NCBI GenBank assembly: GCA_903845115.1
Contig: CAIMWE010000022.1
Location: forward strand, 62,001-126,000
DNA length: 64,000 nt
DNA from: an uncultured Acidobacteriota bacterium
GTDB lineage: Bacteria; Acidobacteriota; Thermoanaerobaculia; UBA5066
Direction: 5' to 3'
A program made the position numbers and the translations under genes. Position 1 is the stretch's first letter, and the number at the start of each line of letters is the position of its first letter. Of the stretch, positions 7,392 to 25,848 are shown piece by piece. The notes below the pieces were generated by a model that was not told the origin of the DNA, ran no database searches, and saw nothing but the letters and a program-made list of their open reading frames with translations.

Positions 7392-8711
7392 ATGACCGAC
7401 GCGACCGAGACCCAGGTGTCCCCGTCCATCGCCGATCTGCCGAACCACGTGGGCGAGACCGTCACGCTCAAGGGGTGGCTCTACAACAAGCGGGCCGGCG
7501 GCAAGATCCGATTCCTCGTCCTCCGGGACGGGTCCGGCTACGTCCAGGCGATCGTCTACCGGCCCGACGTGTCCGATTCCGTCTGGGAGGCCGCCGACCT
7601 CGCCACCCAGGAGTCGACGCTCGAGGTGACCGGGGTCGTCCGCGAGCACCCGAAGGAGAAAGGGAAAGTCGAGCTCGCCGCCTCCGGCGTGACGATCCTG
7701 GACCTGTGCCACGACTGGCCGATCACGCCCAAGGAGCACGGGGTCGACTTCCTGATGTCGCAGCGCCACCTCTGGCTCCGCTCGGCGAAGCAGGTGGCGA
7801 CGCTGAAGGTCCGGAGCGAGGTCGAGAGCGCGATCCACGACTTCTTCTACACGCGCGGCTACACCCGGACCGACTCGCCGATCCTGACCCCCGCCGCCTG
7901 CGAGGGGACGTCGAACCTCTTCGAGACGCAGTACACGGAGGAGGAGAAGGCGTACCTGTCGCAGTCGGGGCAGCTCTACCTGGAGCCGGTCTGCGCCGCG
8001 CTCGGGAAGGTCTACTGCTTCGGGCCGACGTTCCGGGCCGAGAAGTCGAAGACCCGCCGCCACCTCCGGGAATTCTGGATGGTGGAGCCGGAGGTCGCCT
8101 TCCTGGAGATCGACGGCCTGATGGACCTGGCCGAGGAGTTCGTCAAGGAGCTGACGGGCCGGGTCCTCGACCGCCGCGGCGAGGACCTGAAGCGCCTGGA
8201 GCGCGACACGTCCAAGCTGGAGCCGGTCCTCTCGAAGAGGTTCCCGCGGATCAGCTACCGGGAGGCGGTGGAGATCCTGAAGGGGAAGGGCTTCCCCGTC
8301 ACCTTCGGCGACGACCTGGGCGGCGACGAGGAGACGGCGCTGACCGAGGGGTTCGACACCCCCGTCATGGTCACGCGGTACCCGGTGTCGATCAAGGCGT
8401 TCTACATGCAGCCGGACCCGCAGGACCCGGACGTGGTCCTCGGCCTCGACATGCTGGCCCCGGAGGGGTACGGCGAGATCATCGGAGGCTCGCAGCGGAT
8501 TCACGACCACGACCTCCTCCTTTCGCGCATCACCCAGCACGCCCTGCCGCTGGAGGCCTTCCAGTGGTACCTCGACGTGAGGAAATACGGGACGTTCCCG
8601 CACTCCGGCTTCGGCATGGGGCTCGAGCGCTTCGTCGCCTGGATGTGCGGCGTCCCCCACCTCCGCGAGTGCATCCCGTACCCCCGGATGCTCTACAGGA
8701 TCTACCCTTGA
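7392..8711 (+). CDS. asnS: Asparaginyl-tRNA synthetase
   Basis: A 439-residue class IIb aminoacyl-tRNA synthetase charging tRNA-Asn. The N-terminal OB-fold anticodon-binding domain spans about 1-105 ([24 protein letters not shown]). The catalytic domain has motif 2 ([20 protein letters not shown]) and motif 3 ([15 protein letters not shown]). AsnRS rather than AspRS is supported by the short length without the bacterial AspRS insertion domain and by the Asn-type [12 protein letters not shown]. Its presence suggests direct Asn-tRNA formation. The stop codon lies inside the first copy of a 46-bp repeat. Confidence 0.95.
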
Positions 8712-8798
8712 TCGGGGGAGTCGCTGGCGCGACGTCCCCCGAGCCCCCTCAGCTTGATCGGGGGAGCCGCTGGCGCGAAGCTCCCCGTGCCCCCTCGG
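8707..8798 (+). repeat. 46-bp tandem repeat, two copies, each a hairpin
   Basis: Copy A 8707-8752 and copy B 8753-8798 fill the gap between asnS and rimO. Each folds: in A, GGGGGA pairs with TCCCCC and TCGC with GCGA; in B, GGGGAG pairs with CTCCCC. The copies differ at several bases yet the outer stem keeps pairing. Probable transcript end or dispersed palindrome; no U-tract. Confidence 0.75.
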
Positions 8799-8823
8799 CC
8801 TTGACGTACCGAATGACACGGTC

Positions 8824-10194
8824 GTGTTCACGCCTTTGAAGAAGCTGCCCACCGTCGGGATCGTCTCCCTCGGCTGCCCGAAGAACCTCGTCGACACCGA
8901 GGTAATGCTGGGCTACCTGAAGAAGGAGGGGATGACCCTCGCGGGACCGGACGAGTCGAGGGTCGTCATCGTCAACACGTGCGGCTTCATCGACCAGGCC
9001 AAGGAGGAATCGGTGGAGGCGATCCTGGAGCAGGTGCGGCGCAAGGTGGCCGGCGAGATCGACCGCGTGATCGTGGCGGGGTGCATGGTCCAGAAGTACG
9101 GGGCGGAGCTGGCGGCGGAGATCCCCGAGGTGGACCACTTTCTCGGCCTGGACGAGCTGGAGAGGGCGCCGTCCGCCGCGCTCGGCCTCCCGTCCCTCCC
9201 GCGCTTCACCTCCAAGCCGATGGCGACGCGCCTCTACGACGACCTCGCCCCCCGGGTGCTCACCCACCGGAAGGGCTACGCCTACCTGAAGGTCGCCGAG
9301 GGGTGCAACAACCCGTGCACGTTCTGCACGATCCCGCAGATGAGGGGGCTGCAGCGCTCCCGGACCGTCGAATCGCTCGTCCACGAGGCGCAGGGCCTGG
9401 AGGCGCAGGGGGTGAAGGAGCTGGTCCTGATCTCGCAGGACACGACCCGCTACGGCGAGGACCTCGGTCTCGGGCGGACGGGTCTGGCCCGGCTGGTTCG
9501 GGCCCTTCTCGACGGCACCACCTTCCCCTGGCTCCGCTTCCTCTACGCCTACCCGAAGACGCTCGACGACTCGGTCCTAGAGCTCATGGGCTCGGAGAAG
9601 CGCTTCCTCTCCTACGTCGACATCCCCTTCCAGCACGTCTCGCGCAACGTCCTCGGGGCGATGCGCCGGGGCGGCGACCCGGCTTCCTCCCGGTCGTTGA
9701 TCGCGAGGATCCGGGAGAAGGTGCCGGGAGTGACCCTCCGGACGACGATGATCGTGGGGTTCCCGGGCGAGACGGAGGCGGACTTCGAGGAGTTGCTCTC
9801 CTTCCAGCGGGACGTCGCCTTCGACCACCTGGGCGTCTTTCCCTACTCGCCGGAGCCCGGGTCCGGCGCGGAGCCGCTCGGGGATCCCGTACCGGCCGAC
9901 GTCAAGGAGCGGCGGCGGGACGCCGTCATGGCGGCCCAGCAGGGGATCTCGCTGGCGAGGAACCGCGCGATGCGGCGGCGCCGCTTCGACGCCCTGCTCG
10001 AGGGGCCCTGCTCCGAGTCGGACCTCCTCCTGGAAGGCCGTCTCGCGTCGCAGGCCCCCGAGATCGACGGACGCCTCCTGATCAACGACGTCCTCGAGGG
10101 GATCGCGGTGGGCGCCGGGCAGATCGTGCGCGTCGAGGTGACCGGGGCGCAGGCGTACGACCTCGTCGGCCGGGTCGTCCGGGTCCTCGGATGA
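8824..10194 (+). CDS. rimO: Ribosomal protein S12 methylthiotransferase RimO
   Basis: A 456-residue radical-SAM enzyme with two Fe-S clusters that methylthiolates an Asp of ribosomal protein S12. The N-terminal MTTase domain carries its cluster cysteines in SLGCPKN, VNTCGF and VAGCMVQKY. The radical-SAM CxxxCxxC is CNNPCTFCTIP. A C-terminal TRAM domain ends at about LVGRVVRVLG. IPQMRG...S and the SLGCPKNLVDTE opening favour RimO over MiaB. The start is GTG at 8824; the only in-frame alternative would lose the first strand. The last codon overlaps ribF (ATGA), so the two are co-transcribed. Confidence 0.95.
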   Translation: MFTPLKKLPTVGIVSLGCPKNLVDTEVMLGYLKKEGMTLAGPDESRVVIVNTCGFIDQAKEESVEAILEQVRRKVAGEIDRVIVAGCMVQKYGAELAAEIPEVDHFLGLDELERAPSAALGLPSLPRFTSKPMATRLYDDLAPRVLTHRKGYAYLKVAEGCNNPCTFCTIPQMRGLQRSRTVESLVHEAQGLEAQGVKELVLISQDTTRYGEDLGLGRTGLARLVRALLDGTTFPWLRFLYAYPKTLDDSVLELMGSEKRFLSYVDIPFQHVSRNVLGAMRRGGDPASSRSLIARIREKVPGVTLRTTMIVGFPGETEADFEELLSFQRDVAFDHLGVFPYSPEPGSGAEPLGDPVPADVKERRRDAVMAAQQGISLARNRAMRRRRFDALLEGPCSESDLLLEGRLASQAPEIDGRLLINDVLEGIAVGAGQIVRVEVTGAQAYDLVGRVVRVLG

Positions 10195-11950: not shown

Positions 11951-14900
11951 TCAGGGAACGATCATCGGGACGAAGCTGCCGTCGTCGTTGGCCTGGTCGT
12001 TCAGGACGCCGTAGGCGAGGAACTGGTCGGTGCCGGCGACCCGCCGGATCCGCGCGTAGCCCGACGAGACTCCGGCGTACCGCGCGAGCGGCGTCCCGAT
12101 CTGGGTCCACTGCCCCGGGACGAGGGTCACCTGGTCCCGGCCCAGCTCCCTGGCCGAGGAGTCGAAGTAGGTGACCTCGAGGACGAGGTTCTCCTCCTGG
12201 CCTCCGACGGCGTGGACGAGGCCGAGGTTGGAGCGCGTCCCCCCCGCCTGCCCTCGCGTGCCGGACTGCTGGAGCCCGAAGACCCAGGCCTCGGTGTCGG
12301 CCGAGGCGCCGACGGCGGTCGCAGGGTAGGCGAGGCCGAAGGTGCCGCCCCCCTTCGACGCGTAGGTGCGGACGCTGACGTTCACGTCGCTCACCGAGAC
12401 GTCCTCCGGGTTGACCTCGGGGCCCGGGCCGCCGGTTCGGGACGCTCCGGTCACGAAGGAGAAGAGCATGCTGGCCACGGTCCCGGCGGGGGCGTCGAAG
12501 CCCTCGGACCGGAGCTCGGCCATCAGGTCGGGGATCGTCACCTCGCTGAGGGGGTCGAGCTCGAAGTCCCCGTACTGTGGGTCGTTCGACCCCGACGGGA
12601 TGAGGGCGAACTCGCCGGAGACCTTCCCGAAGCTCCGGTTGGAGATCGTCATCTCGGACCTGTAGCCGCCCGTGTCGAGGACGACGGGCATCATCGCCTC
12701 GTTCGCCGGCGACCGGGCGTCCGTGACGGCCATCGGGACGAAGGCGCCGTCGCCGGTGACGTTGTCGATCACGGTGGCGTAGCAGACGAACTGGTCGTCG
12801 CCGCCGACCCGGCGGACCTGCGCGAAGCCCCGGGCGATGCCGCGGCTCGCGAGAGGCGTCCCGACCTGGGCGAACTGGAACGCCTCGAGGGTGAGGAAGT
12901 CCTTGCCCGGGTCGGCGAGACCGGTGGAGGCGTCGCGGTACGTGACCTCGAGCGTGATCGCCCCGTTCGAGCCGGAGCCGGCGTTCACGCACGCGACGTT
13001 GGAGCGCGCTCCGGGCTGCCCCGCGGCCGACGTCTGCTGGAGTCCGTACAGATAGGCCTCGCTCGTCGCTCCCTGCAGGAGGGGCGTGGCCGGGAAGGCG
13101 AGGCCGAACCGGCCCCCGATCCCTTGCGCCCGGAGGGCGTCGTTCGGCGGCGTGGTGACGCGCACCTGAGCCCCGAAGAGGCCCGTGCCCGCGGCGCCGC
13201 GTACCTCGACGCGCAGCGGCGTGACGACGGGGCCCGGCGGGACGGCCAGGCCGTGGGCCGAGAGGAAGTCGAAGACGTCCGCGTGGACCTCCTGGCCCGG
13301 CCGGAGCGTGGAGGAGGCCGAGCCGTGGATCGTCGACGCCCGGAAGACGAGGGAGAGGTCGCTTCCCGAACGGTTCGTCAGGGTCAGCTCCGTGCCGAAC
13401 TGCGTCCCGCCCTGGCCGTCCGACCTGACGATGGCCGGGAGGAGGTAGGTGAGGAGGTCCCCCGTGCCGGTCCCTCCGAGGGCCACGGTGACGCTCTTCC
13501 GCTTGGTGCTGGTCTGGCTGCCGTCGCTCACCGTCAGCGCCACGGTGTAGATGCCCGGCTGCACGAAAACGTGGGAAGGATTGACCTGGGTCGACGTGCC
13601 GGCGCCGTCGCCGAAGTCCCAGCTCCAGCTCGTCATGAAGGTCGAGGCGTCGGCGAACCTCACGGCCTGCCCCGGGCGCGGGGCGGCCGGGGCGAACGTG
13701 AAGTCGGCGGCCGGGGCGGTGCCTGCCGAGGGAGCGGGCGGTGCCGCGACGACAGAGGCCGCGCTGGACGCCTGCCAGACGCCGCGGCCGGACGTTCCGA
13801 CGAGGACGTTCGCCCCGCCGCCGGAGAACCGGATGCTCGAGACCGGGACGTTGGGGAGGCCGGTCCCGTGCCGCTGCCAGGTCCGGCCGCCGTTGTCCGA
13901 CCGGTAGAGGCCGGAGAAGGCCCCCGCCCAGAGGACGCTCGGGTTCCTAGGATCCTGCTCGAACGAGAAGACGGGGAGGTCGGGGAGGCCGGTGGCCTGG
14001 TTCGTCCTGGAGAGGGGCGTCCAGTTCGAGCCCCCGTCCGTCGATTCCCAGACGCGCTCCTTCTGGGCGTCGAGGATCTCGCTGGTGACGAAGATCCGCC
14101 GGGAATTCGTCGGGTCCGGCCGGACGGCGGAAACGCTGCCGACCGGCGTCTCTCCCTTGCGGGTCCAGGTCCCCCCGAAGTCGGTCGATTCGTAGACCGT
14201 CTTGCCGTCGGCGAAGAGCATCCGGCTTCCGTCCGGGGTGATCGCCAGGTCGACGATCTCCTCGGTGAGGGGCATCTTCGAGGCCGCCTTGCTCCAGTTC
14301 GCCCCGCCGTCCGTGGAGACCCAGACCATCTTCTTGGAGTAGGTGAAGACCCTCGAGCTGTTCGTGGGGTCCTGCAGGAGGAACGTCCTCCAGGCCGCGT
14401 TCTTCGTCCCCGCGTCGGAGAGCCCGCTAGCATCCGAGAAGCTCTTCCCTCCGTCCTTCGACACCTCGATTCCCTGCTGGACGGTCGAGATGACGAGGTT
14501 CCGCTTGTCGGTCGGGTGGACGAGACAGCCGGAGCCGTCGCCGCCGCCGATCTGCAGCCAGTCCGTCCCGGAGACCCGGATGCTCGTGCCGTTGTCCTGA
14601 GCGCCGTTCATGATGACCGAGGCGTCGGGGGAGACGCAGAGCTCGTCGACGATCCAGGAGACGATCCCCTTGTTGAGGGAGGCCCAGCTCCCGTCGTCCG
14701 CCCGGCGGTAGATCCCGCCGTCGTTCCCGGCGTAGAGCGCGCCGTCGGTCCCCCAGACGAGGGCGTGCTGGTCGGCGTGCGTGTACGGGATCTTCGAGTC
14801 CTTGCTCGGCGGGCTCCAGTCGCTCGCCTGGGCGAACGTGGCGCCGGCGTCGGTGGACCTCCAGAGGTTGAGGCCGCCAGCCCAGACGGTGTCGGCGCTC

Positions 14901-16096
14901 TTCGGGTCCACGGCGACGACGTTCGCGAAGTTCCCCTGCTCGGAGAGGATGTCCACGACCGGGGTCCTGGAGCCGAGGCCGAGGGCGGTCCAGCGGTCCC
15001 CACCGTCCCGGGAGACCGCCATGTCGACCTGTTTGTTGTTGAGGTCGGCGATCAGGACGTAGACGCGGTCGGGGTCCGTCGGCGCCGCCGCGACCTGGGC
15101 GCGGCCGCGCTGGTCGAGCGCTCCGGGCCACCCCTCCGACTTCGAGGCCCACGTCTCGCCGCCGTCGGTGGACTTGTAGACCGAGCCCGGGACCCTGCCG
15201 GTGCGCTCGACGGACTCGCCCGGGAAGTAGACGCCCGCGTAGACGGTTCGAGGGGCCGATGTGCAGCGCGACAGCGCGGTCGCGTAGAGCCTGGCGCCGC
15301 TCTGCTGGACGAGGACGCCCTTCCAGGTCGCTCCTCCGTCGGTCGACCGGTGGATCCCCCGGTCTCCGCCGGCCAGCAGCGTGTTGGCGTTCGCGGGGTC
15401 GACGCTGATCGCCCAGAAGAAATCGGCCGGGACGGCCGGGATCCGGCTCCAGGTATCGCCGCCGTCGCGAGAAACGAGGAATCCCAGCCCCGTCTTCACG
15501 AGCGCGTCGGCCGGCCGGCCGATCCTGGTCGTCGAGGAATCGCCGCACGCGCTCCCCGCGTAGACGCGCGTCGGGTCGGAGGGGGCGTAGGCGACCGCCC
15601 CGATGTTGAGGCCGCCCGCCGGGAGGTTGTCCGCGACGGCCTTCCAGATGCCTCCGCCGTCCTTCGTCCTCCAGAGGCCTCCCCCTGCCGTCCCGACGAT
15701 GATCGTCTTCGGGTCGGTCGGGTGGGGGGCGATGGCCGTGATCATCCCCGTGTCGTCCTGCCCCGTCTTGGCGGAGCCGATGGGAGAGGCGAAACTCGGG
15801 TTGAATGCGGGGCCGAGGGCCGTCCACTCCGGGGGAGCGGCCGCCGTCCCGAGCGACCGTTCCCGCTGTCCCGCGGCCCGCCGCTCGGCGTCCAGCTCGC
15901 GCTCGCCCGTCTCGGCGGCGCGCCGATGGACGTCGCGCAGGTCGCGGGTGCCGTGGGCGGCCTCGAAGCGATCTGCCTGCTCCAGCGCCCGGCGCTGCCG
16001 TACCTCGCCCTCGGTCTCCTCCTGGCCGTTCGACCGTCCGCAGGGGAGGAGGACGAGAGCGAGAGCGATCCAGAGGACCCTCGGGAATGGCCGCAT
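11951..16096 (-). CDS. Giant secreted BNR/sortilin-like beta-propeller protein with PKD domain
   Basis: 1381 residues from an ATG with AGGAGGTT upstream and a signal peptide (LWIALALVLLPCGRS). Residues ~80-830 contain many Asp-box/BNR repeats of the S-T-D-G-G-x-T-W type (HRSTDGGATW, YKSTDGGETW, YESTDFGGTW), as in sortilin/VPS10-like 10-bladed propellers. A PKD domain follows (SWSWDFGDG, GIYTVALTVSDG). The C-terminal ~450 residues hold two related modules, each ending VGTPLA...G.A..RRV.G.DQF..Y...D...DDG.FVPM. An open frame continues 88 codons upstream but lacks protein character. Probably cell-surface or secreted and glycan or protein binding; the catalytic Asp/Glu of sialidases was not identified. 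No outer-membrane sorting tail was recognised. Confidence 0.85.
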   Translation of the reverse strand: MRPFPRVLWIALALVLLPCGRSNGQEETEGEVRQRRALEQADRFEAAHGTRDLRDVHRRAAETGERELDAERRAAGQRERSLGTAAAPPEWTALGPAFNPSFASPIGSAKTGQDDTGMITAIAPHPTDPKTIIVGTAGGGLWRTKDGGGIWKAVADNLPAGGLNIGAVAYAPSDPTRVYAGSACGDSSTTRIGRPADALVKTGLGFLVSRDGGDTWSRIPAVPADFFWAISVDPANANTLLAGGDRGIHRSTDGGATWKGVLVQQSGARLYATALSRCTSAPRTVYAGVYFPGESVERTGRVPGSVYKSTDGGETWASKSEGWPGALDQRGRAQVAAAPTDPDRVYVLIADLNNKQVDMAVSRDGGDRWTALGLGSRTPVVDILSEQGNFANVVAVDPKSADTVWAGGLNLWRSTDAGATFAQASDWSPPSKDSKIPYTHADQHALVWGTDGALYAGNDGGIYRRADDGSWASLNKGIVSWIVDELCVSPDASVIMNGAQDNGTSIRVSGTDWLQIGGGDGSGCLVHPTDKRNLVISTVQQGIEVSKDGGKSFSDASGLSDAGTKNAAWRTFLLQDPTNSSRVFTYSKKMVWVSTDGGANWSKAASKMPLTEEIVDLAITPDGSRMLFADGKTVYESTDFGGTWTRKGETPVGSVSAVRPDPTNSRRIFVTSEILDAQKERVWESTDGGSNWTPLSRTNQATGLPDLPVFSFEQDPRNPSVLWAGAFSGLYRSDNGGRTWQRHGTGLPNVPVSSIRFSGGGANVLVGTSGRGVWQASSAASVVAAPPAPSAGTAPAADFTFAPAAPRPGQAVRFADASTFMTSWSWDFGDGAGTSTQVNPSHVFVQPGIYTVALTVSDGSQTSTKRKSVTVALGGTGTGDLLTYLLPAIVRSDGQGGTQFGTELTLTNRSGSDLSLVFRASTIHGSASSTLRPGQEVHADVFDFLSAHGLAVPPGPVVTPLRVEVRGAAGTGLFGAQVRVTTPPNDALRAQGIGGRFGLAFPATPLLQGATSEAYLYGLQQTSAAGQPGARSNVACVNAGSGSNGAITLEVTYRDASTGLADPGKDFLTLEAFQFAQVGTPLASRGIARGFAQVRRVGGDDQFVCYATVIDNVTGDGAFVPMAVTDARSPANEAMMPVVLDTGGYRSEMTISNRSFGKVSGEFALIPSGSNDPQYGDFELDPLSEVTIPDLMAELRSEGFDAPAGTVASMLFSFVTGASRTGGPGPEVNPEDVSVSDVNVSVRTYASKGGGTFGLAYPATAVGASADTEAWVFGLQQSGTRGQAGGTRSNLGLVHAVGGQEENLVLEVTYFDSSARELGRDQVTLVPGQWTQIGTPLARYAGVSSGYARIRRVAGTDQFLAYGVLNDQANDDGSFVPMIVP

Positions 16097-16550
16097 GAAG
16101 AACCTCCTACCGGTTCGAGGACCCGATGGACGACCCGTCGTTCGTCCGGCCGGCCGACGTTCTTGTTCTTTCTGACCCGTCTTGCTCGAAACCACCATCT
16201 GGAGATCAGAACCCCCGGCGCCGGTTCGCAAATACCGTGCCTGTCTGCCGTTCGCCTGGAGGAGCAGTACGGCCAGCGTTCCTCCCGGCCTGAGGACTTC
16301 GCCTCCCGTGAGCGCGGGGCGATCGGTCCCGATTTGATCATCCGAATCCCGAATTGACACACCCGACCGGGCCTCCCGGGACGGATCCAGCGGGTCTCGT
16401 ACCGCCCGGCCTCAGATCGAGAAAAGGTAAGACGCTGGCCCTTCGATTGCTTCCATGTTTTGTGAGGGACCGATTCAATTGGGGGGGGAAGGCTCGCGAA
16501 GTCGCCTGATCCGACCCCCGTGGATCAGGAAAGAGATTGAGGAGCGTCCG
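16097..16550. other. 454-nt intergenic region between divergent secreted-protein genes
   Basis: Separates the BNR protein (minus) from the first S12 hydrolase (plus). Locally less GC-rich than its flanks, with AT-rich patches at about 16330-16360 and 16440-16485. It must hold both promoters, but no -35/-10 pair could be assigned with confidence. The only clear structure is the hairpin at 16505-16529. Confidence 0.5.
16505..16529 (+). promoter_or_regulatory. Inverted repeat in the leader of the first S12 hydrolase
   Basis: CCTGATCC (16505-16512) pairs with GGATCAGG (16522-16529) around a 9-nt loop, about 20 nt before the start and just before the GAGGAG ribosome binding site. It could be an RNA hairpin affecting translation or a dimeric operator; no regulator gene is nearby. 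Confidence 0.35.
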
Positions 16551-18221
16551 ATGACACACCTGACACCCGTGGCTCGCCAGACCCGCCGTCCGGCCATTCC
16601 CTTCGTCGTCGCCTCGGCCGTGATCGCTCTCCTCGGGGCCGCCCCACCGGCGGCCGCTCAGACGGCCGCCTCCCGTCTTCCCGTCGCCGGCGGCCAGACG
16701 GGCGAACCGGTGCTGCCGGCTCCGTGGAAGGGGCCCGCGCCGGCGGCGCAGGCCTCGATGGCCGCGATCATCGCGGACCTCGAGGCGTTCGCGCAGTCGG
16801 AGATGGCGAAGCAGAAGGTCCCCGGCCTCGCCTTCGCGATCGTCCAGAACGACCAGCTCGTCCACGCGAAGGGATACGGCGTCAAGAAACTGGGGGGGAC
16901 GGCCGCCGTCGGCGCCCACACCGTCTTCGAGGTCGGCTCGACGACGAAGGCCTTCACGTCGGCCCTCGTCGGGATGCTCGTCGACCAGGGGACCCTGAAC
17001 TGGAACGACAGCGTTGTCGACCGGCTCCCGAAGTTCGCCATGTACGACCCCTGGGTGACGAGGGAGTTCCGGATCGACGACCTGATGGCCCAGCGGAGCG
17101 GGATGCCCGGCTATTCGCTCGACCCGATGTCGACCCTCGGCTGGCCGCGGCAGGCGATCGCGGATGCCGTCGCCTTCGTGGAGCCCGTTTACAGCGCCCG
17201 GTCGGAGTACTCCTACGTCAACTCGCTGTGGCTGCACGCCAGCTTCCTCGTGGAGAAGTACGGCGGCCTCTCGTGGGAGAACGCGATGGCCCGCCGGATT
17301 CTCGGGCCGCTCGGGATGACCGAGAGCACCGTCGACCCCGAGGTCGTTCCCATGCTCGACGACATCGCCACCGGGCACATCACCCTCTCGAGCGGGACGC
17401 CCTGGGTCATCCCGGCCGACTGGCCCTACCGCGGGTGGCTGGACACCTACGGCCCCGCGGGAAGCCTCCGCTCCAACGTCGTCGACATGTCGAAGTGGGC
17501 CCGGCTCCACCTCGGGAACGGGACCTTCGAGGGGAAGCAGCTCCTGGCGTCCGAGACGGTCTCGCGCCTCCACGCCGCCCGGACGACGGCGGGCGTCCTC
17601 GGCCCGAGGACGATGAGCTACGCCCAGGGCTGGCTGTACGACTCCCGCCTGTCCGGCCCGGTCGTCTGGCACAACGGCGGGACCTCGGGGATGCACTCCA
17701 TCGTCTGTCTCTACCCCTCCCTGAACGTCGCCCTCGTCGTCCTGACGAACACGAACGGCAACACGATTCCCGAGGCGATGGACGCCAGGCTCTACGGGCT
17801 CCTCTTCCCGGGGACGCCGGCCCCGACGGCAGCCGAGACGGCTGCGGCCGCCGCCTTCGCCCGGCCCGCGGGACCGGCGCGGATCGACAGGCCCTCCCTC
17901 GTCAAGGCAAATGTCGGCCCCGAAGGCGTCGTGCCGCCCCTTCCCCTTTCGCGCTACGCGGGGAGCTTCTCCAACCCGGCCTATGGAACGGTGACGGTGA
18001 GGGAGAAGAGCGGATCCCTGGCCCTGGCGATCGGCCCGAGGCCGGTCGAGATGCCGGCGGTCCACTTCTCCGGCAACATTTTCATGATCTCGCTTCCCGG
18101 AATGCCCGAGTCGGACAGCCCGGCGACCTTCGTCGTGCCGTCCGGCGGTTCCGCCACCCGGCTCCAGCTCGAGTGGCTTTCGGAAGTCAAGGGGGGCTGG
18201 TTCGAGAGGACCGGCCCGTGA
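16551..18221 (+). CDS. Exported serine hydrolase, S12 / class C beta-lactamase fold
   Basis: 556 residues. Signal peptide (AIPFVVASAVIALLGAAPPAAAQ) after an ATG with GAGGAG upstream. The S12 catalytic domain has SxxK as GSTTKAF (Ser130, Lys133), YxN as YVN (Tyr222, Asn224), and HNGGTSG in place of the KTG/HxG triad. A C-terminal ~110-residue beta-rich domain of DUF3471 type starts at LPLSRYAGSFSNPAYG. It may be an esterase, D-aminopeptidase or peptidoglycan/peptide amidase; true beta-lactamase activity is not implied. First of three paralogs in a row with only 50-75 nt between them. Confidence 0.85.
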   Translation: MTHLTPVARQTRRPAIPFVVASAVIALLGAAPPAAAQTAASRLPVAGGQTGEPVLPAPWKGPAPAAQASMAAIIADLEAFAQSEMAKQKVPGLAFAIVQNDQLVHAKGYGVKKLGGTAAVGAHTVFEVGSTTKAFTSALVGMLVDQGTLNWNDSVVDRLPKFAMYDPWVTREFRIDDLMAQRSGMPGYSLDPMSTLGWPRQAIADAVAFVEPVYSARSEYSYVNSLWLHASFLVEKYGGLSWENAMARRILGPLGMTESTVDPEVVPMLDDIATGHITLSSGTPWVIPADWPYRGWLDTYGPAGSLRSNVVDMSKWARLHLGNGTFEGKQLLASETVSRLHAARTTAGVLGPRTMSYAQGWLYDSRLSGPVVWHNGGTSGMHSIVCLYPSLNVALVVLTNTNGNTIPEAMDARLYGLLFPGTPAPTAAETAAAAAFARPAGPARIDRPSLVKANVGPEGVVPPLPLSRYAGSFSNPAYGTVTVREKSGSLALAIGPRPVEMPAVHFSGNIFMISLPGMPESDSPATFVVPSGGSATRLQLEWLSEVKGGWFERTGP

Positions 18222-18273
18222 AGAGCCTCCCTCCGCTTTCGTCCCCGCATCGCATCGCCGCGAGGAGTCTTCC

Positions 18274-21200
18274 GTGAAGCACGCCAGGTCCCGGATCTCC
18301 GCCGTCGGCCTTCTCCTTTTCTCGCTCCTGTCGGCCGCCCCGGCCGTGTCCGCCGGGCCGGCCGGGCCGGGCCCGGACGCCGCGCCTTCCTGGCCCTCGA
18401 TCGTCGCCGACCTCGAGGCGCTCGCCAGGACCGAGATGGCGGTGCAGAAGGTCCCGGGCCTGGCTTTCGCGATCGTCCAGGGAGATGCCCTCGTCCACGC
18501 GAAGGGGTACGGCATGAAGAAGGTGGGGGGGGCCGACCCGGTCGGCGCCCACACCGTCTTCGAGGTCGGCTCGACGACGAAGGCCTTCACCTCGGCCCTC
18601 GTCGGGATGGCCGTCGACGAGGGGAAGGTGACGTGGAGCGACCCGGTCGTCGACCACCTGCCGGCCTTCCGGATGTACGACCCGTGGGTGACGCAGCAGT
18701 TCCGGGTCGACGACCTGATGTCGGCCCGGAGCGGGATGCCCGGCTACTCGCTCGACCAGATGCTCTCCTTCGGCTTTTCGCGCCGCGAGTACGCCGACGC
18801 CGTCGCCTTCGTCGCCCCCACCTTCTCCTTCCGCGCCGGCTTTGGCTACGTCAATTCCCTCTGGCAGTGGGCTTCCTTCCTCGTCGAGAAGCAGATGGGG
18901 CTGCGCTGGGAGGACGCGATGGCGCGCCGGATCCTCGGCCCCCTCGGGATGACCGAGTCGACCGTCGACCCCGAGGTCGTCCCCCTCCTCGACGACGTGG
19001 CGACGGGACACCTGCGGCTCGCCGACGGCTCCCCCTGGCCCATCCCTTCCGGCTGGCCCTACACCGGGTGGATCGACACCGCCGGCCCCGCGGGGAGCCT
19101 CCGCTCGAACGTCGTCGACATGTCGAAATGGATCCGGATGCACCTGGCGGAAGGGAAGTTCGAGGGGAAGACGATCCTCTCGCCCGGGACGGTCTCGTAC
19201 CTGCACGCCGGCCGGACGGCGATGAGCAGCAGCGGGGCCGCCTCGACGAGCTACGCCCTGGGCTGGGCCTCCTCCTCGCGCGAGCAGGGCCCCGTCGTCT
19301 GGCACGACGGCGACACGATCCGGATGGTGACGGTGGTCGCCCTCTACCCGTCGGCAAACGTCGGCCTCGTCGTCCTGACGAACGCGGGGGGGAACACGGT
19401 CGGCTACGCCCTGGAGCGGCGCCTCTACGACCTCCTCTTCCCGCCCGCGGCCGGTCCGACCAGCTCCGCGACCGGCGGCGCCGGGACGCTGGAGCCCTTC
19501 GATCTTCCCCCCGCCGGGCCGCCTCGGGCCGGAAGCCTCCCCGGGGCGGCGACGCCCCCCTCCCCCGACGGCGTCGTCCCGCCGCTTCCCCTCTCGCGCT
19601 ACGCGGGGAGCTACTCGAACCCGGCCTACGGCGCCGTGGTCGTCCGGGAGGAGAAGGGGGCCCTCGTTCTCGCTTTCGGCCCGAAGGGGATCCCGCTCGC
19701 CGCGACGCACTTCTCGGGGAACGTCTTCCGGCTCACCCGCCCGGAGGACCCCGTCTGGGAGACGGCCGTCACTTTCGTCCTCCCCTCCGGCGCCCCCGCG
19801 TCCCGCCTGCAGATCGAGGGGCTCGAGGACGTCAACGGGGGGTGGTTCGAGCGGAAGGCGACTTACGCCGCCGCCCTCGAGGAGGCGCGGCAAGCCGCGA
19901 AGGAGACCCTCGCCGGGGGCGACGTGACCGGGATCGCCGTCGTCCTCGTCGACGCCGACGGCCTCCTCTTCGCCGAGGGGTACGGCGTGGCCGATGCGGC
20001 GAAGAGCCGCCCGCCGACCGCCACGACGATGTTCGGCCTCGGCTCGGTGACGAAGATGTTCGCCGCCACGGCCGTGATGCAGCTCGTCGACCGGGGGCTC
20101 GTCGACCTCGACGCCCCGCTCGTCCGGTACGTCCCCTCCTTCCGGATGCTGGACCCGGGGTACAGGGGCATCACCGTCCGGATGCTCATGGACCACTCGT
20201 CGGGGCTCCCGGGGACCGACTACCGGAACGCCTTCACGCAGTCCCCCTACCCGGGCTACCTCGACCAGGTCCTGGCGGCCGCCTCGACCTCTCGCCTCAA
20301 GGCCCCCCCCGGGTACATGAGCGTCTACTGCAACGACGGATTCACGCTCCTCGAGAGCCTCGTGGAGGGGATGACCGGGAGGCCCTTCACCCGGTACGTC
20401 GAGGAGGAGGTCCTCGCCCCGCTCGGGATGGAGAGCAGCCGCTTCCCCCACGGGCCCTTCCCGGAAGGGAGCTTCGCCCACGCCTTCCGGGGGGGCGTCG
20501 TCCAGCCGCAGGAGTTCGTCAGCCCCCTTGCCTCCGGCGGGCTCTACTCGAGCGCGGCCGACATGGCGAAGTTCCTCCGGGTCTTCCTGAACAAGGGGGC
20601 CGCTCCCGTCCGCATCCTCTCGCCCGCCTCCGTCGCGGCGATGGCGGTCGACCAGACCCAGGGCACCTTCAACCCGGTGAAGTCCCTCTCGTGGTCGTTC
20701 GGCCTCGGCTGGGACACGGTGGCGCAGCCGGGCCTGGCGGCCGTCGGCGTCAAGGGGTGGTCGAAGGGGGGGGACTCGGGCGTCTACCACGCATGGATGA
20801 TCGTCGCCCCGGGCGAGAAGCTCGCCGTCGTCGTCCTCTTCGCTTCTGGTGGGAGCCCGCTCGCCTTCGCCGAGAGGGTCCTCCTCCGGGCGCTCGCCGA
20901 GAACGGGCGGATCGCCGCCTTCCCGGACCCGATCCAGCCGAAGGTCCTTCCCGTCGCGAAGGTCCCGGACGGCCTCCTCGCGGCGATCGCGGGGGTCTAC
21001 GCGAGGTCCGAGGCCCTCTTCCGGGTCCGGCCGAACGCGGACGACTCGCTCGAGATCGCCCTCTTCCAGGACGGCTGGCAGGTCGTTCCCAACCCCCTCC
21101 GCTACCGGACCGACGGCTGGTTCTGCTCCGACGCAAGTCCCCTCTCGGCGTACCGGTTCGTGGAAGCGGGGGGGACGCAGTACCTCGTCCAGCGTTCCGC

Positions 21201-21846
21201 CCCGGGATACGGCCACTACTTCGACCCGGCGCTCTTCTGCCAGCGCGTGAGCGCGAAGCCCCCGTCGAGACCCGCCTGGAGCCGGCGGGTCGGCTCGCTC
21301 TGGCTCGCGGTCAACGAGCGGTCCGACTCGGCGGCCTGGGACACGCAGCCGAGCCCCGCGTTCGGTCTCGCAGAGGTCCCGGAGCTCCCGGGCCACGTCC
21401 TCGCGGAGCAGCCGAGCGGAGAGAAGCAGATCCTCGACGCGTCGCGAGAGGATGCGCGGGCCGGGATGACCCTCGTCATCCCGCAGATGCCGGGCCGCGA
21501 CCTCGAAGACCTGGAGGTCCTCACCGTCGAAGGCGAGGAGTGGCTCCGCTGGGGGAGCCGCCTCTACCGGCCGCTCGGCTCCGTGAAGGAGGTCCCCCGC
21601 GGGACGACGGCGGCCGTCGTCGTCGGCCCAGAAGGGTACGGCGAGTGGCGCTCCGTGGCGGAGTCGACCTCTCCCGTCACCGTCCGCCTTCGCGGGGCGC
21701 AGGCGTGGCGGCTCTACGACCCGGCCCTCCACCCCGTCGCGGCCCGCGCCGGCGACGGCTCGGCGACCCTTCCTCCGGGGAAGGGCCCGGGCTTCCTGAT
21801 CGTCCAGGCGGGACCGGGGACCTCCGTCGCGGTCGCCGTCGAGTAG
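18274..21846 (+). CDS. Exported double-domain S12 serine hydrolase
   Basis: 1190 residues, GTG start with CGAGGAG upstream, signal peptide ending near AVSAGPA. It contains two complete S12 domains. Domain A has GSTTKAF (Ser100, Lys103), YVN (Tyr192) and the DUF3471-like tail LPLSRYAGSYSNPAYG. Domain B, from about residue 535, has GSVTKMF (Ser591, Lys594), YCN (Tyr685, Asn687) and KGGDSGVYH. A unique ~190-residue C-terminal region follows. Domain A is close to the two neighbouring genes; domain B is much more divergent, so the gene is a fusion rather than a fresh internal duplication. Both active sites look intact. The GTG lies 52 nt after the previous stop; probable operon. Confidence 0.85.
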   Translation: MKHARSRISAVGLLLFSLLSAAPAVSAGPAGPGPDAAPSWPSIVADLEALARTEMAVQKVPGLAFAIVQGDALVHAKGYGMKKVGGADPVGAHTVFEVGSTTKAFTSALVGMAVDEGKVTWSDPVVDHLPAFRMYDPWVTQQFRVDDLMSARSGMPGYSLDQMLSFGFSRREYADAVAFVAPTFSFRAGFGYVNSLWQWASFLVEKQMGLRWEDAMARRILGPLGMTESTVDPEVVPLLDDVATGHLRLADGSPWPIPSGWPYTGWIDTAGPAGSLRSNVVDMSKWIRMHLAEGKFEGKTILSPGTVSYLHAGRTAMSSSGAASTSYALGWASSSREQGPVVWHDGDTIRMVTVVALYPSANVGLVVLTNAGGNTVGYALERRLYDLLFPPAAGPTSSATGGAGTLEPFDLPPAGPPRAGSLPGAATPPSPDGVVPPLPLSRYAGSYSNPAYGAVVVREEKGALVLAFGPKGIPLAATHFSGNVFRLTRPEDPVWETAVTFVLPSGAPASRLQIEGLEDVNGGWFERKATYAAALEEARQAAKETLAGGDVTGIAVVLVDADGLLFAEGYGVADAAKSRPPTATTMFGLGSVTKMFAATAVMQLVDRGLVDLDAPLVRYVPSFRMLDPGYRGITVRMLMDHSSGLPGTDYRNAFTQSPYPGYLDQVLAAASTSRLKAPPGYMSVYCNDGFTLLESLVEGMTGRPFTRYVEEEVLAPLGMESSRFPHGPFPEGSFAHAFRGGVVQPQEFVSPLASGGLYSSAADMAKFLRVFLNKGAAPVRILSPASVAAMAVDQTQGTFNPVKSLSWSFGLGWDTVAQPGLAAVGVKGWSKGGDSGVYHAWMIVAPGEKLAVVVLFASGGSPLAFAERVLLRALAENGRIAAFPDPIQPKVLPVAKVPDGLLAAIAGVYARSEALFRVRPNADDSLEIALFQDGWQVVPNPLRYRTDGWFCSDASPLSAYRFVEAGGTQYLVQRSAPGYGHYFDPALFCQRVSAKPPSRPAWSRRVGSLWLAVNERSDSAAWDTQPSPAFGLAEVPELPGHVLAEQPSGEKQILDASREDARAGMTLVIPQMPGRDLEDLEVLTVEGEEWLRWGSRLYRPLGSVKEVPRGTTAAVVVGPEGYGEWRSVAESTSPVTVRLRGAQAWRLYDPALHPVAARAGDGSATLPPGKGPGFLIVQAGPGTSVAVAVE

Positions 21847-21919
21847 CCCCCCGAAGCGGAACCCGCCCTTCGTCGTCGCCCCGAGTCCCGGCCGAACGTC
21901 GAACCGAAAGGAGCATCCC

Positions 21920-23470
21920 ATGAGGCAGCACTCGGTCCCTGCGCGTCTCCCCGGAGCCGTCGTCCTCGCCGCGCTTCTCGCCTCGATCTCGCCCGCCGCC
22001 GCCTCGTCGGGGCCAGCCCTCGAGGCGACGCCCGACTGGCCGGCGATCGTGAAGGACCTCGAGACGCTCGCCACGTCCGAGATGGTGAAGCAGAGCGTCC
22101 CGGGCCTCTCCTTCGCGATCGTGCAGGGAGACACCCTGATCCACGCCAAGGGATACGGCGTCAAGAAGGTCGGGACGGCGGCCGCCGTCACCGAGCACAC
22201 GGTCTTCGAGGCGGCGTCGGTCACCAAGTCCTTCACCTCGGTCCTCGTCGGGATGGCCGTCGACGAGGGGAAGCTGAAGTGGGACGACCGCGTCGTCGAG
22301 ATCCTCCCGCATTTCCGGATGTACGACCCGTGGGTGACGAAGGAGTTCCGGGTCGACGACCTGATGGCCCAGCGGAGCGGGATGCCGACCTACTCCCTCG
22401 ACGAGATGGGTCTCTTCGGCTGGGAGCGGTGGGACCTCGCCCGCGCCGTCGACCTCGTCGAGCCCACCTACAGCTTTCGGGCGCAGTACTCGTACGTCAA
22501 CACGCTCTGGACCTGGGCCGCGGGGCTCGTCGAGAAGCGCTGGGGCCTCTCGTGGGAGAACGCGATGGCGCGCCGGATCCTCGGCCCCCTCGGGATGACC
22601 GAGTCGACCGTCGACCCGGAGGTCCTCCCCTACCTCGACGACGTGGCCACCGGGCACATCGTCGTCGCGCCTGCCCCTCCCTGGCCGGTCCCGGCCGACT
22701 GGCCGTACCGGGACGCCGTCGACGTCGGCGGCCCCTCGGCGTCCCTCCGGACGACCGTCCTCGACCTCGCGAAGTGGGCCCGCTTCCACCTGGCGGGGGG
22801 GACGTTCGAGGGGCAGCGGCTCCTCTCGGCCGAGACGGTGTCGCGCCTCCACGCCGCCCGGTCGTCCGTGATGTCCGTCGGCCCCCGGAACCTCAGCTAC
22901 GCGCAGGGCTGGATCTACGACTCGCGGTCCCAGGGGCCCGTGATCTGGCACAACGGCAGCTCCCTCTCGATGCACTCCATCGTGGCCCTCTACCCGTCGG
23001 CGAACGTCGGCCTCCTCGTCATGACGAACGAGGCGGACAACACGATCCCGGAGGGCCTGGACGCCCGTCTCTACTCCCTCCTCTTCCCCGCCGCGGCCCC
23101 CCCGACGGGGGCCGCACCCACGACGGCGGCCGCTCTCTCCCGGCCCCCGGCTCCGGTCCGGGTCCGTCCGGACGGGGTCGTCCCGCTCCTTCCCCTCGCC
23201 CGCTACGCGGGGAGCTACTCCAACCCGGCCTTCGGCACGATCACCGTCGGCGAGCAGAAGGGGGCCCTCGTCGTGACGATCGGGCCGAGGAAGGTCGGTC
23301 TGCCGGCGACGCACTTCTCGGGCAACGTCTTCACCCTCCTGCTGCCCGACTACCCCGGCTGGGAGACGAAGGCGACCTTCGATGTCCCGGCGGGCGGCGC
23401 CGCCTCGCGGCTCCAGATCGAGAAGCTCACCTACGTCAAGGAGGGCTGGTTCGAGAGGACCGGCCCGTGA
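21920..23470 (+). CDS. Exported serine hydrolase, S12 / class C beta-lactamase fold
   Basis: 516 residues; ATG with AAAGGAG upstream and a signal peptide (AVVLAALLASISPAAASS). Active-site motifs are ASVTKSF (Ser100, Lys103), YVN near residue 192 and HNGSSLS, followed by the same C-terminal beta domain (LPLARYAGSYSNPAFG). Closest to the 556-residue protein and to domain A of its neighbour; long runs such as RRILGPLGMTESTVDPE are identical. Third member of the array, 73 nt after the second. The substrate is unknown. Confidence 0.85.
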   Translation: MRQHSVPARLPGAVVLAALLASISPAAASSGPALEATPDWPAIVKDLETLATSEMVKQSVPGLSFAIVQGDTLIHAKGYGVKKVGTAAAVTEHTVFEAASVTKSFTSVLVGMAVDEGKLKWDDRVVEILPHFRMYDPWVTKEFRVDDLMAQRSGMPTYSLDEMGLFGWERWDLARAVDLVEPTYSFRAQYSYVNTLWTWAAGLVEKRWGLSWENAMARRILGPLGMTESTVDPEVLPYLDDVATGHIVVAPAPPWPVPADWPYRDAVDVGGPSASLRTTVLDLAKWARFHLAGGTFEGQRLLSAETVSRLHAARSSVMSVGPRNLSYAQGWIYDSRSQGPVIWHNGSSLSMHSIVALYPSANVGLLVMTNEADNTIPEGLDARLYSLLFPAAAPPTGAAPTTAAALSRPPAPVRVRPDGVVPLLPLARYAGSYSNPAFGTITVGEQKGALVVTIGPRKVGLPATHFSGNVFTLLLPDYPGWETKATFDVPAGGAASRLQIEKLTYVKEGWFERTGP

Positions 23471-23524: not shown

Positions 23525-24616
23525 TCACTCCTCGCAGTGCCGCCTGTAGAACCTGCACGTGACGTCTCCCGCGAGGTCCGTTCGCGTCAGGTCGAGCTGG
23601 CCTGCCCTGGCGGCCCGCGAGAAGAAGAGCTTCCTGAGGTCGATCGTGGCGATCGTCGGATTCCTGAGGGTCCGGAAGTGGACCTCGGCGTTGTCGATGT
23701 CCGTCACGATCGTCCAGTGGGTGGATTGCTGGCTGTTCGGGCCTGTCGGGAACGGCGCCATCGACGTGATCTGGATCGTCGCGAAGCCGTAGTCGACGGC
23801 ACGTGCCGAATTCGAAAGGGAGGGGAGCCTCTCGAGGTAGTAGACGCCGCGGACGAACCGCTCCGGCACCATCTGCCCCGTGTCGGGCCTGAAGTCCCAC
23901 CCCCCGGGGATGATCCGGGACCCGCCGTAGCCCTCGTGCTGAGAGAGGAAGTCGAGGGATTCCGCGTAGGTGTGGTTTGCCAGCACGGGATGCGGGATGT
24001 CCTTCTTCCTGGTCACCACGACCTTCTGGGCGAGGAACTCGACGATGGCCGAATCACCGGCGGCGTCGTGGAGGAAAAAGTGCAGCAGGACCTCGGCGTT
24101 CTGCCCTCCCGAGAGAAAGGGCGTCGGTACGACCCGGTAGCGTCCCGCCTCGAGATCGGCCACGGCGTCCCCGACGCTGGCGAACCCGTCCAGCAGGTAC
24201 TGCATCAGCAAGGCGACGTCGACGACGGTCCGGGCCCCGGTCGTAGGGAGCTCGGAAGCGGTCAGGAAATAGGTCCCGATCTTCAGGCCGGCTTCGTTGA
24301 TGCCGTCCACGCCCGCCGAAACGAGGTCGTCCCCGGCGCTCTTCGCGTCCAGCACCTTGTCGAACGTCAGGGACGCATACCGGCTCCTCCAGGAGAGGGG
24401 AGTCGTCCCGGCCGGGGCGTACCCGGCCGATCTCCTCGCGCCCGAGGGGTTGTACCGGACGAAGCCGGTGCCGTCGCCGAAGTCGAAGTTGCGCGCCGAG
24501 ACCTTCACCCGGCCGCCCGACTCCAGGAAGACCTCCGAGCACGAGTAGGCGCTGGAAGCCCCGAGGCCGGCCGCTGCCACGAGAGCGATAGCGAGGACGA
24601 CGTGGAAGCGCTTCAT
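23525..24616 (-). CDS. Exported linear-amide C-N hydrolase (choloylglycine hydrolase / penicillin V acylase family)
   Basis: A 363-residue Ntn hydrolase. Signal peptide MKRFHVVLAIALVAAAGLG... ends SAYS, immediately before Cys26, which starts the CSEVFLES segment; in this family the Cys freed by processing is the nucleophile. FDFGDG, the Asp of ARNFDF, SAGVDGINEAGLKIG and ANHTYAESLDFLS are family signatures (Asp, Asn and Arg-type active-site positions). It cleaves amide bonds such as bile salts, penicillin V, N-acyl homoserine lactones or other N-acyl amides; the true substrate is unknown. The ATG at 24616 is chosen because of AAGGAGGGAGAC before it and because the signal peptide starts there. 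Convergent with the S12 array. Confidence 0.83.
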   Translation of the reverse strand: MKRFHVVLAIALVAAAGLGASSAYSCSEVFLESGGRVKVSARNFDFGDGTGFVRYNPSGARRSAGYAPAGTTPLSWRSRYASLTFDKVLDAKSAGDDLVSAGVDGINEAGLKIGTYFLTASELPTTGARTVVDVALLMQYLLDGFASVGDAVADLEAGRYRVVPTPFLSGGQNAEVLLHFFLHDAAGDSAIVEFLAQKVVVTRKKDIPHPVLANHTYAESLDFLSQHEGYGGSRIIPGGWDFRPDTGQMVPERFVRGVYYLERLPSLSNSARAVDYGFATIQITSMAPFPTGPNSQQSTHWTIVTDIDNAEVHFRTLRNPTIATIDLRKLFFSRAARAGQLDLTRTDLAGDVTCRFYRRHCEE

Positions 24617-24774: not shown

Positions 24775-25848
24775 ATGACGACGAGCGGATTCCCGGTCTC
24801 GGAAGGATTCGTCCCGTTCCGAGGGTTCAGGACCTGGACCAGGGTTGTCGGTGAACGCGAGGAGCCCGGGAAGGCCCCGATCCTGGTCCTCCACGGCGGG
24901 CCGGGCGCGGCTCACCACTACCTGGAGCCCCTGGCCGCCCTCGCGGAATCGGGCCGCCGGGTCGTTTTCTACGACCAGCTCGGCTGCGGCCGGTCCGACC
25001 GCCCGCACGACCCGTCTCTCTGGAGCGTCGCTCTCTTCGTGGAGGAGCTGGCGGCCGTCCGCGCGGCGCTCGGACTCACGCGGGTCCACCTCCTGGGTCA
25101 GTCGTGGGGCGGAATGCTGGCGATGGAAGCGGCGGTCGGGCAAAGCCCTGGCCTCGTCAGCCTCGTCCTCGCCGACGCCCCCGCCAGCATGGACCTCTGG
25201 GTCACGGAGGCGAACCGTCTCCGCGGCGGCCTTCCTCCGGAGGTGCAGGCCACCCTCCGGAAGCACGAGGAGGCGGGGACGACCGACGAGGCGGAATACC
25301 AGGACGCCACGATGGTCTTCACCCGCCGGCACGTCTGCCGCCTCGACCCGTTTCCCGAGTGCCTGGAGCGGTCGTTCGCCCAGCTCGGCGAGGACCCGGA
25401 GGTCTACCACACGATGAACGGGCCGAGCGAGTTCCACGTCGTCGGGAGGCTCCGCGGATGGGACCTCACGGCCCGCCTCCGCGAGATCCGCCTCCCGGCG
25501 CTCGTCCTGGGGGGGAGATACGACGAGGCGACACCCGCGATCACGGAGGCGGTGCACCGGGCGCTTCCGGGCTCCGAATGGGTGATCTTCGAGAACAGCT
25601 CCCACATGCCCCACCTCGAGGAGCCGGAGCGGTTCCGCGAGACGGTCGAGGCCTTCCTCGGCCGCGCGGAGTCCCCCCCGGGCCGGGCAGGCCGCCCCAC
25701 GGAGGAGCCTGCCGCCTCGGGACCGCCGTGGTCGCCGGTCGGCCCGGAGTCTCTCTTCAGTCCCGGGGGCCGTCGGAGTCCCAGACGGTCGTCGGGCCGA
25801 ACGACTCGAGGATCGGGCGGACGACGGAGGCCTGCCCGACCGCGGTGA
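24775..25848 (+). CDS. Proline iminopeptidase-type alpha/beta hydrolase
   Basis: 357 residues, peptidase family S33. Oxyanion motif LVLHGGPGAAHHYLEPL, then YDQLGCGRSDRP, nucleophile elbow GQSWGGM (Ser110), acidic residue in GGRYDEATP, and His in SSHMPHLEEP. These signatures fit prolyl iminopeptidase or tricorn-associated F1-type peptidases, which release N-terminal residues from small peptides. Cytosolic. The catalytic domain ends near residue 300. The remaining ~55 residues are Gly/Pro/Arg-rich and overlap the 3' end of the opposite-strand M16 gene by 92 nt, so the tail is probably non-functional read-on. The ATG has no clear ribosome binding site. Confidence 0.83.
   Translation: MTTSGFPVSEGFVPFRGFRTWTRVVGEREEPGKAPILVLHGGPGAAHHYLEPLAALAESGRRVVFYDQLGCGRSDRPHDPSLWSVALFVEELAAVRAALGLTRVHLLGQSWGGMLAMEAAVGQSPGLVSLVLADAPASMDLWVTEANRLRGGLPPEVQATLRKHEEAGTTDEAEYQDATMVFTRRHVCRLDPFPECLERSFAQLGEDPEVYHTMNGPSEFHVVGRLRGWDLTARLREIRLPALVLGGRYDEATPAITEAVHRALPGSEWVIFENSSHMPHLEEPERFRETVEAFLGRAESPPGRAGRPTEEPAASGPPWSPVGPESLFSPGGRRSPRRSSGRTTRGSGGRRRPARPR

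Follow-up and report, generated by a model that had tools for sequence, protein, structure and literature searches.

The window, as we call the whole stretch of 64,000 nucleotides analysed here, carries an array of three adjacent genes for S12 serine hydrolases in which, judging from sequence comparison, a lineage-specific tandem duplication meets a gene fusion. One type of catalytic domain, here named A, is present three times (A1 to A3), and the middle copy is joined on one protein to a second S12 domain, B, which is a full-length homologue of the Lip3 DL-peptidase of Paenibacillus. The parts of this A2-B protein are of known kinds, while their combination is new. We lean, with slight preference, towards the view that the locus is a secreted S12 peptidase/amidase set for D-amino-acid-containing peptides. 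What makes the locus informative is its Lip3-type half together with the amplification within one lineage.

Organisation of the array

All three genes are encoded on the forward strand with intergenic gaps of 52 and 73 bp, and each is preceded by a ribosome site of the GAGG/AGGAG type. Gene 1 (A1; 16551..18221, +) encodes a protein of 556 amino acids, exported according to its N-terminus, with the S12 domain at residues 78-414 and a C-terminal DUF3471 barrel at residues 459-541. Gene 2 (18274..21846, +) encodes the fusion protein of 1190 amino acids with two S12 active sites. Its domain A2 (residues 1-527; 18274..19854, +) consists of a signal region, an S12 domain with the motifs STTK, YVN and HDG, and DUF3471. 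It is followed by the Lip3-type catalytic part of domain B (residues 528-885; 19855..20928, +) with SVTK, YCN and KGG, and by the tail of B (residues 886-1190; 20929..21843, +), which has no Pfam family and is recognised by a profile match to the Lip3 tail. Gene 3 (A3; 21920..23470, +) encodes an exported protein of 516 amino acids with an S12 domain (SVTK, YVN, HNG) and DUF3471. The first-pass annotation had described three adjacent exported genes with four S12 domains, and its coordinates and lengths were exact: genes 1 to 3 have one, two and one PF00144 matches, with scores of 176, 397 and 172 bits (Pfam cut-off 27), respectively. The export of the array proteins, as well as that of the neighbouring Ntn hydrolase, was judged by eye from the N-termini. 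Only eight PF00144 matches were found in the genome of 5.85 Mb, and since four of these lie within 7 kb at the array, the clustering of S12 domains is not due to chance. Scans for promoters and terminators gave results no better than chance.

Three further features of the window were recorded. Just upstream of the array lies an open frame of 1469 residues with Sortilin/BNR repeats and a PKD domain (11951-16360, -). The window also contains an S13 D-Ala-D-Ala carboxypeptidase, another enzyme of the penicillin-binding type (44-2647, +), and a group II intron-type reverse transcriptase/maturase with RVT_1 and GIIM matches (55841-57424, -).

Catalytic motifs

The SxxK and YxN motifs, which had been reported as intact in all four domains, were located with the serine at S130 (A1), S100 (A2), S591 (B) and S100 (A3), and the tyrosine at Y222, Y192, Y685 and Y192, respectively. 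Two features can be added to the earlier description. The third S12 motif is intact as well, in the form HxG in A1 to A3 (H374 in HNG, H344 in HDG and H344 in HNG) and KGG in B (K831), and a DUF3471 domain stands behind every A domain and, according to Pfam, not behind B. MAFFT placed the third motif of B one column off; the equivalence of its lysine with the histidine of the A domains was read from a comparison in which B is aligned to Lip3 and to its own relatives. In all 32 aligned A sequences, the histidine and the glycine of this motif are invariant. The loop behind it reads HDGDTIRM in A2, as opposed to HNGGTSGM and HNGSSLSM in its sisters, which is why the specificity may not be the same in all three A domains.

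The A domains

The three A domains are 60-62% identical to each other, whereas B shares 26-29% identity with them, and the run GPLGMTEST occurs in A1, A2 and A3 and is missing from B. The close likeness of the first domain of gene 2 to its neighbours, as first described, is thus borne out. In a maximum likelihood tree that included the closest A genes of other genomes, A1 to A3 form one clade (99/91), within which A2 and A3 are sisters (99/95). Outside this clade are the A genes of the genomes G074 (54% identity to A3), G011 (51% to A2) and G120 (41% to A3), and no second close A copy was found in any relative. As the clade leaves out all relatives found, the sequences place the tandem amplification in the window's own lineage, so the description as lineage-specific and amplified holds. 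The dN/dS ratios among the A copies of 0.54-0.63 are affected by a third-position GC content of about 0.95, which biases dS low, and no relaxed or positive selection is claimed for them. A close A gene is present in one of the 13 other family members, namely G011. At E <1e-60, 16 of the 396 genomes of the phylum carry A genes. A-type genes with 38-40% identity were also found outside the phylum, in Atribacterota, Omnitrophota, Bacillota and Thermodesulfobacteriota.

An AlphaFold2 model of A1, based on 32 aligned sequences and with a pLDDT of 86, shows the S12 domain, a short linker and the C-terminal barrel. With this model, Foldseek returned Pab87 (2qmi) first, with both domains covered together (E 5e-28), followed by the IS11 esterase (7spn) and then SurE (6ksu); ClbP and R61 are also among the matches, ClbP among the best. 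The global TM-scores of the structural matches range from 0.54 to 0.68 with high rmsd, so that the placement of the barrel relative to the catalytic domain may differ. Pab87 of Pyrococcus abyssi combines D-specific exopeptidase activity with a lipocalin domain (PMC2651629). This CubicO protease shares with the A proteins the S12 domain, the lipocalin-like C-terminal barrel and the motifs SxxK, YxN and HxG; it differs from them in that the identity is only about 20% and the A proteins appear to be exported. Moreover, the motifs YAEAF/L, FFYLN and C-terminal ERY of the Pab87 family are absent from the window proteins, and an assignment of A to CubicO was rejected for the lack of these three family-specific motifs. 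By analogy, the A proteins may nevertheless work like Pab87. SurE, an NRPS cyclase, and IS11, a thermophilic esterase, are S12 proteins that align structurally with A1 over both domains, each with about 20% identity. Owing to this kinship with an esterase and a cyclase, a D-peptidase is one option among several for A.

Domain B and its relatives

The structure 9sn1, entitled ‘Lip3 DL-peptidase’, aligns with residues 20-625 of the 663 residues of B (E 3.6e-76, 260 bits), while the next structure reaches 117 bits. The catalytic motifs correspond in this alignment as GSVTK/GSTSK, VYCNDGF/VYSNDGF and SKGG/SKGG. A profile of the B tail, built with free-standing relatives, matched residues 369-640 of 9sn1 (E 3.3e-21) and nothing else notable among the solved structures. 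From these alignments, B is a full-length Lip3 homologue, including the tail of about 300 residues, with the catalytic motifs of Lip3 retained. A commentary published in 2026 reports that the lipopeptide syringafactin induced Lip3 and Lip7 in Paenibacillus, and that both enzymes cleave this compound selectively at its DL-amide bonds (PMC13188892). B has the full length, the long tail, SxxK, YSN/YCN and KGG in common with Lip3, but it is the second half of a protein with two active sites, lacks a signal peptide of its own, and is well diverged in sequence. For B, the predicted model reached a pLDDT of only 59, too poor to be used.

The nearest free-standing relatives of B are two genes of the genome G370 with 50-53% identity over the full length, and more distant ones were found in G438 and G435 (35-38%). 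On account of the closeness to the G370 genes and the full-length Lip3 match, an origin of B as an old paralogue of A was rejected. The second domain of gene 2 had been taken for a different, older subtype with its own C-terminal region; the different subtype and the separate region stand, as a Lip3 homologue and its Lip3-type tail, whereas ‘older’ gives way to an identifiable Lip3 type. The relatives from G438 and G435 (L157 1282-3483, +; L158 1498-3639, -) have the full Lip3-like tail and have lost all three S12 motifs, with SxxK replaced by ExxR/QxxR, YxN by P[CS]G and KxG by I[RG]G. They are, by their sequences, S12 pseudoenzymes. With two free-standing relatives that lack any catalytic residue, the B fold is not always an enzyme, and the S12 fold probably serves a non-catalytic use in some lineages.

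The A2-B fusion

At the joint (19840..19870, +), the last codons of A2 (GWFER) run into ATYAAALEEARQAAKETL. In one of the B genes of G370, the mature part follows a hydrophobic leader of its own that carries a lipobox-like LAC; this mature part begins with PTYPAAQQEAQTAAQEVL, matching ATYAAALEEARQAAKETL at the joint. The joint thus links the end of A2 directly to the point where the mature B part begins; A2 has no stop codon left, and B no signal peptide. On this comparison, gene 2 looks like an A gene that is short of the final three codons and the stop and continues into a B gene without its leader. Because the end of A2 is joined to a leaderless mature B, the signal region of A2 now serves as the export leader for both domains.

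A second fusion was found in Omnitrophota (L048 9698-12688), where the reading frame of an A-type S12 domain with DUF3471 continues into a second S12 domain at the position that also marks the joint in A2-B, and another S12 gene lies upstream (8430-9581). Unlike B, the second domain of this protein lacks the Lip3 tail and shows its greatest similarity to the neighbouring gene upstream (30.5%), for which reason a common ancestor of the two fusions was rejected. It follows that an A domain and a following S12 domain have fused at least twice, independently. Two serine hydrolase sites of the penicillin-recognising superfamily on one protein are also known from LRA-13, a class C-class D fusion (PMC5967600). 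However, LRA-13 unites a genuine class C with a genuine class D beta-lactamase, whereas both halves of A2-B are S12 domains of D-peptidase-like types.

The context of the other A genes varies: in G120, a second S12 gene lies directly behind the A gene (L149 2147-3448), and in G074 a sulfatase and an ECF sigma factor are found nearby. An S12 gene also lies directly behind a B gene in G370 (L147 1957-3270). S12 genes of differing subtypes tend to be adjacent.

Neighbourhood of the array

Downstream of the array, a gene of the proline iminopeptidase family of alpha/beta hydrolases (24775..25848, +) was identified with TIGR01250 (300.9 bits, cut-off 167.65). Its counterpart in G011, 70% identical, follows the single A gene of that genome immediately, in the same orientation and after only a few bases. 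At E 1e-80, the iminopeptidase-family gene occurs in only two of 61 relatives, the window's own genome (G000) and G011, and within the family a close A gene is likewise confined to these two; it is not beside the A gene of G074. The gene is likely a functional partner of A, a pairing seen in one other genome by sequence. The array itself is unique to this genome, while its core of A and iminopeptidase is kept in one family member, G011. The first-pass annotation had counted the proline iminopeptidase among an extracytoplasmic set; the gene is there, but no signal peptide is visible at its N-terminus, so the protein looks cytoplasmic and does not belong to that set. Its open frame runs about 60 residues beyond the end of the family, and the stretch 25680-25848 overlaps the 3' end of an M16 peptidase gene on the other strand.

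Between A3 and the iminopeptidase-family gene, on the opposite strand to both, lies an exported Ntn hydrolase (23525..24616, -) of the choloylglycine/penicillin V acylase family (PF02275, 57 bits, cut-off 20.4), with a cysteine directly after the signal region. With the bile salt hydrolase equivalog NF038245 it scores 23.8 bits, below 350. Its best relatives are 29-40% identical and occur in five of 395 other genomes (E 1e-25); the short stretches around them contained neither an A nor a B gene. The presence of the exported Ntn amide hydrolase beside the array is confirmed, but its linkage to the array is not conserved, and a role as constant partner is not supported by these few and weak relatives. 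No peptide transporters lie next to the array.

Proposed role and alternatives

From the S12 and Lip3 homology, the intact motifs, the fusion point, the tandem duplication and the pairing of A and iminopeptidase in G011, we infer a scheme of secretion, D-specific endo-then-exo cleavage and uptake, and a substrate. All four S12 domains would act outside the cytoplasm, where B, as a Lip3 type by homology, would cut DL-amide bonds inside a peptide, and the A domains, by analogy to Pab87, would trim residues from the peptide ends. With A2 and B covalently joined, a cut by B and the subsequent trimming by A could take place on one and the same exported chain. The products may then be imported and finished by the cytoplasmic iminopeptidase-family hydrolase. 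Counting against this scheme are the kinship of A with esterases and SurE, the missing Pab87 motifs, the loss of catalytic residues in two relatives of B, the lack of peptide transporters beside the array and the absence of the iminopeptidase gene next to the A gene of G074. Judging from the relatives, the natural substrate could be nonribosomal lipopeptides of neighbours or cell wall debris rich in D-residues. The substrate, previously called unknown, is thereby narrowed to D-amino-acid-containing peptides as a candidate class, through homology to Lip3 and Pab87. In a more specific form, A2-B would be a single-chain degrader of lipopeptides or D-peptides, in which a Lip3-type DL-endopeptidase feeds a barrel-bearing D-exopeptidase, accompanied by two further exo copies with diverged active-site loops; this is tentative, and we consider it possible rather than probable.

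A role in peptidoglycan metabolism, in which the proteins are DD-carboxypeptidases or endopeptidases acting on the own wall or on released muropeptides and the array tunes wall recycling, appears unlikely. In its favour, the S12 family includes the R61 DD-peptidase and AmpH. R61 also turned up in the structural search with A1, and of the named NCBIfam models AmpH scores best on gene 2, although its 143.6 bits fall short of the cut-off of 266; the S13 carboxypeptidase mentioned above is encoded elsewhere in the window. However, B is nearer to Lip3 than to any DD-peptidase, the remaining matches reaching at most 117 bits, and an array in one genome with an A family in so few genomes of the phylum does not fit the pattern of a housekeeping enzyme of the wall.

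Promiscuity is common among S12 enzymes, and this, together with IS11 as the second structural match of A1 and as a strong sequence match for both A and B, would fit secreted esterases or amidases of broad specificity for small molecules instead of peptides. We regard this as quite unlikely, since the Lip3-type tail of B, about 45% conserved with its free-standing relatives, points to a specific substrate and the linked iminopeptidase-family hydrolase suits peptides better.

The presence of ClbP and SurE among the best structural matches of A1 raises the question of maturation or self-protection enzymes for an own nonribosomal peptide, like the prodrug peptidase ClbP or the cyclase SurE. The genome does contain a condensation domain in an open frame of 6705 residues, which represents a large nonribosomal peptide synthetase (contig C119, 38806-40128), and three further matches. 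An endogenous peptide is a possible substrate, given these genes, but every condensation domain is on other contigs and none in the window, no biosynthetic gene was found among the scanned window genes, and the C-termini lack, by reading, membrane helices of the ClbP type, making such a function highly improbable. An array for beta-lactam resistance built like the LRA-13 fusion is scarcely conceivable and was rejected, since despite the shared superfamily and the precedent of LRA-13 as a two-domain serine beta-lactamase (PMC5967600), the array proteins score 57-120 bits with the NCBIfam class C model NF033085 (cut-off 415) and the A motif is HxG and not KTG.

The preferred reading as a secreted set for D-amino-acid-containing peptides concerns a type of enzyme that was only recently identified (Lip3 and Lip7, 2026). 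Should the single-chain degrader be real, the A-type S12 domain would be a recurrent fusion platform, independently joined to different S12 partners across phyla. Enzymes that cut D-amino-acid-containing lipopeptides can determine what becomes of antimicrobial lipopeptides in soil communities, and here a Lip3 homologue is found in a genome far from Paenibacillus, fused to a second S12 domain and beside amplified copies of its partner, which makes the locus a concrete, testable set for D-peptide degradation.
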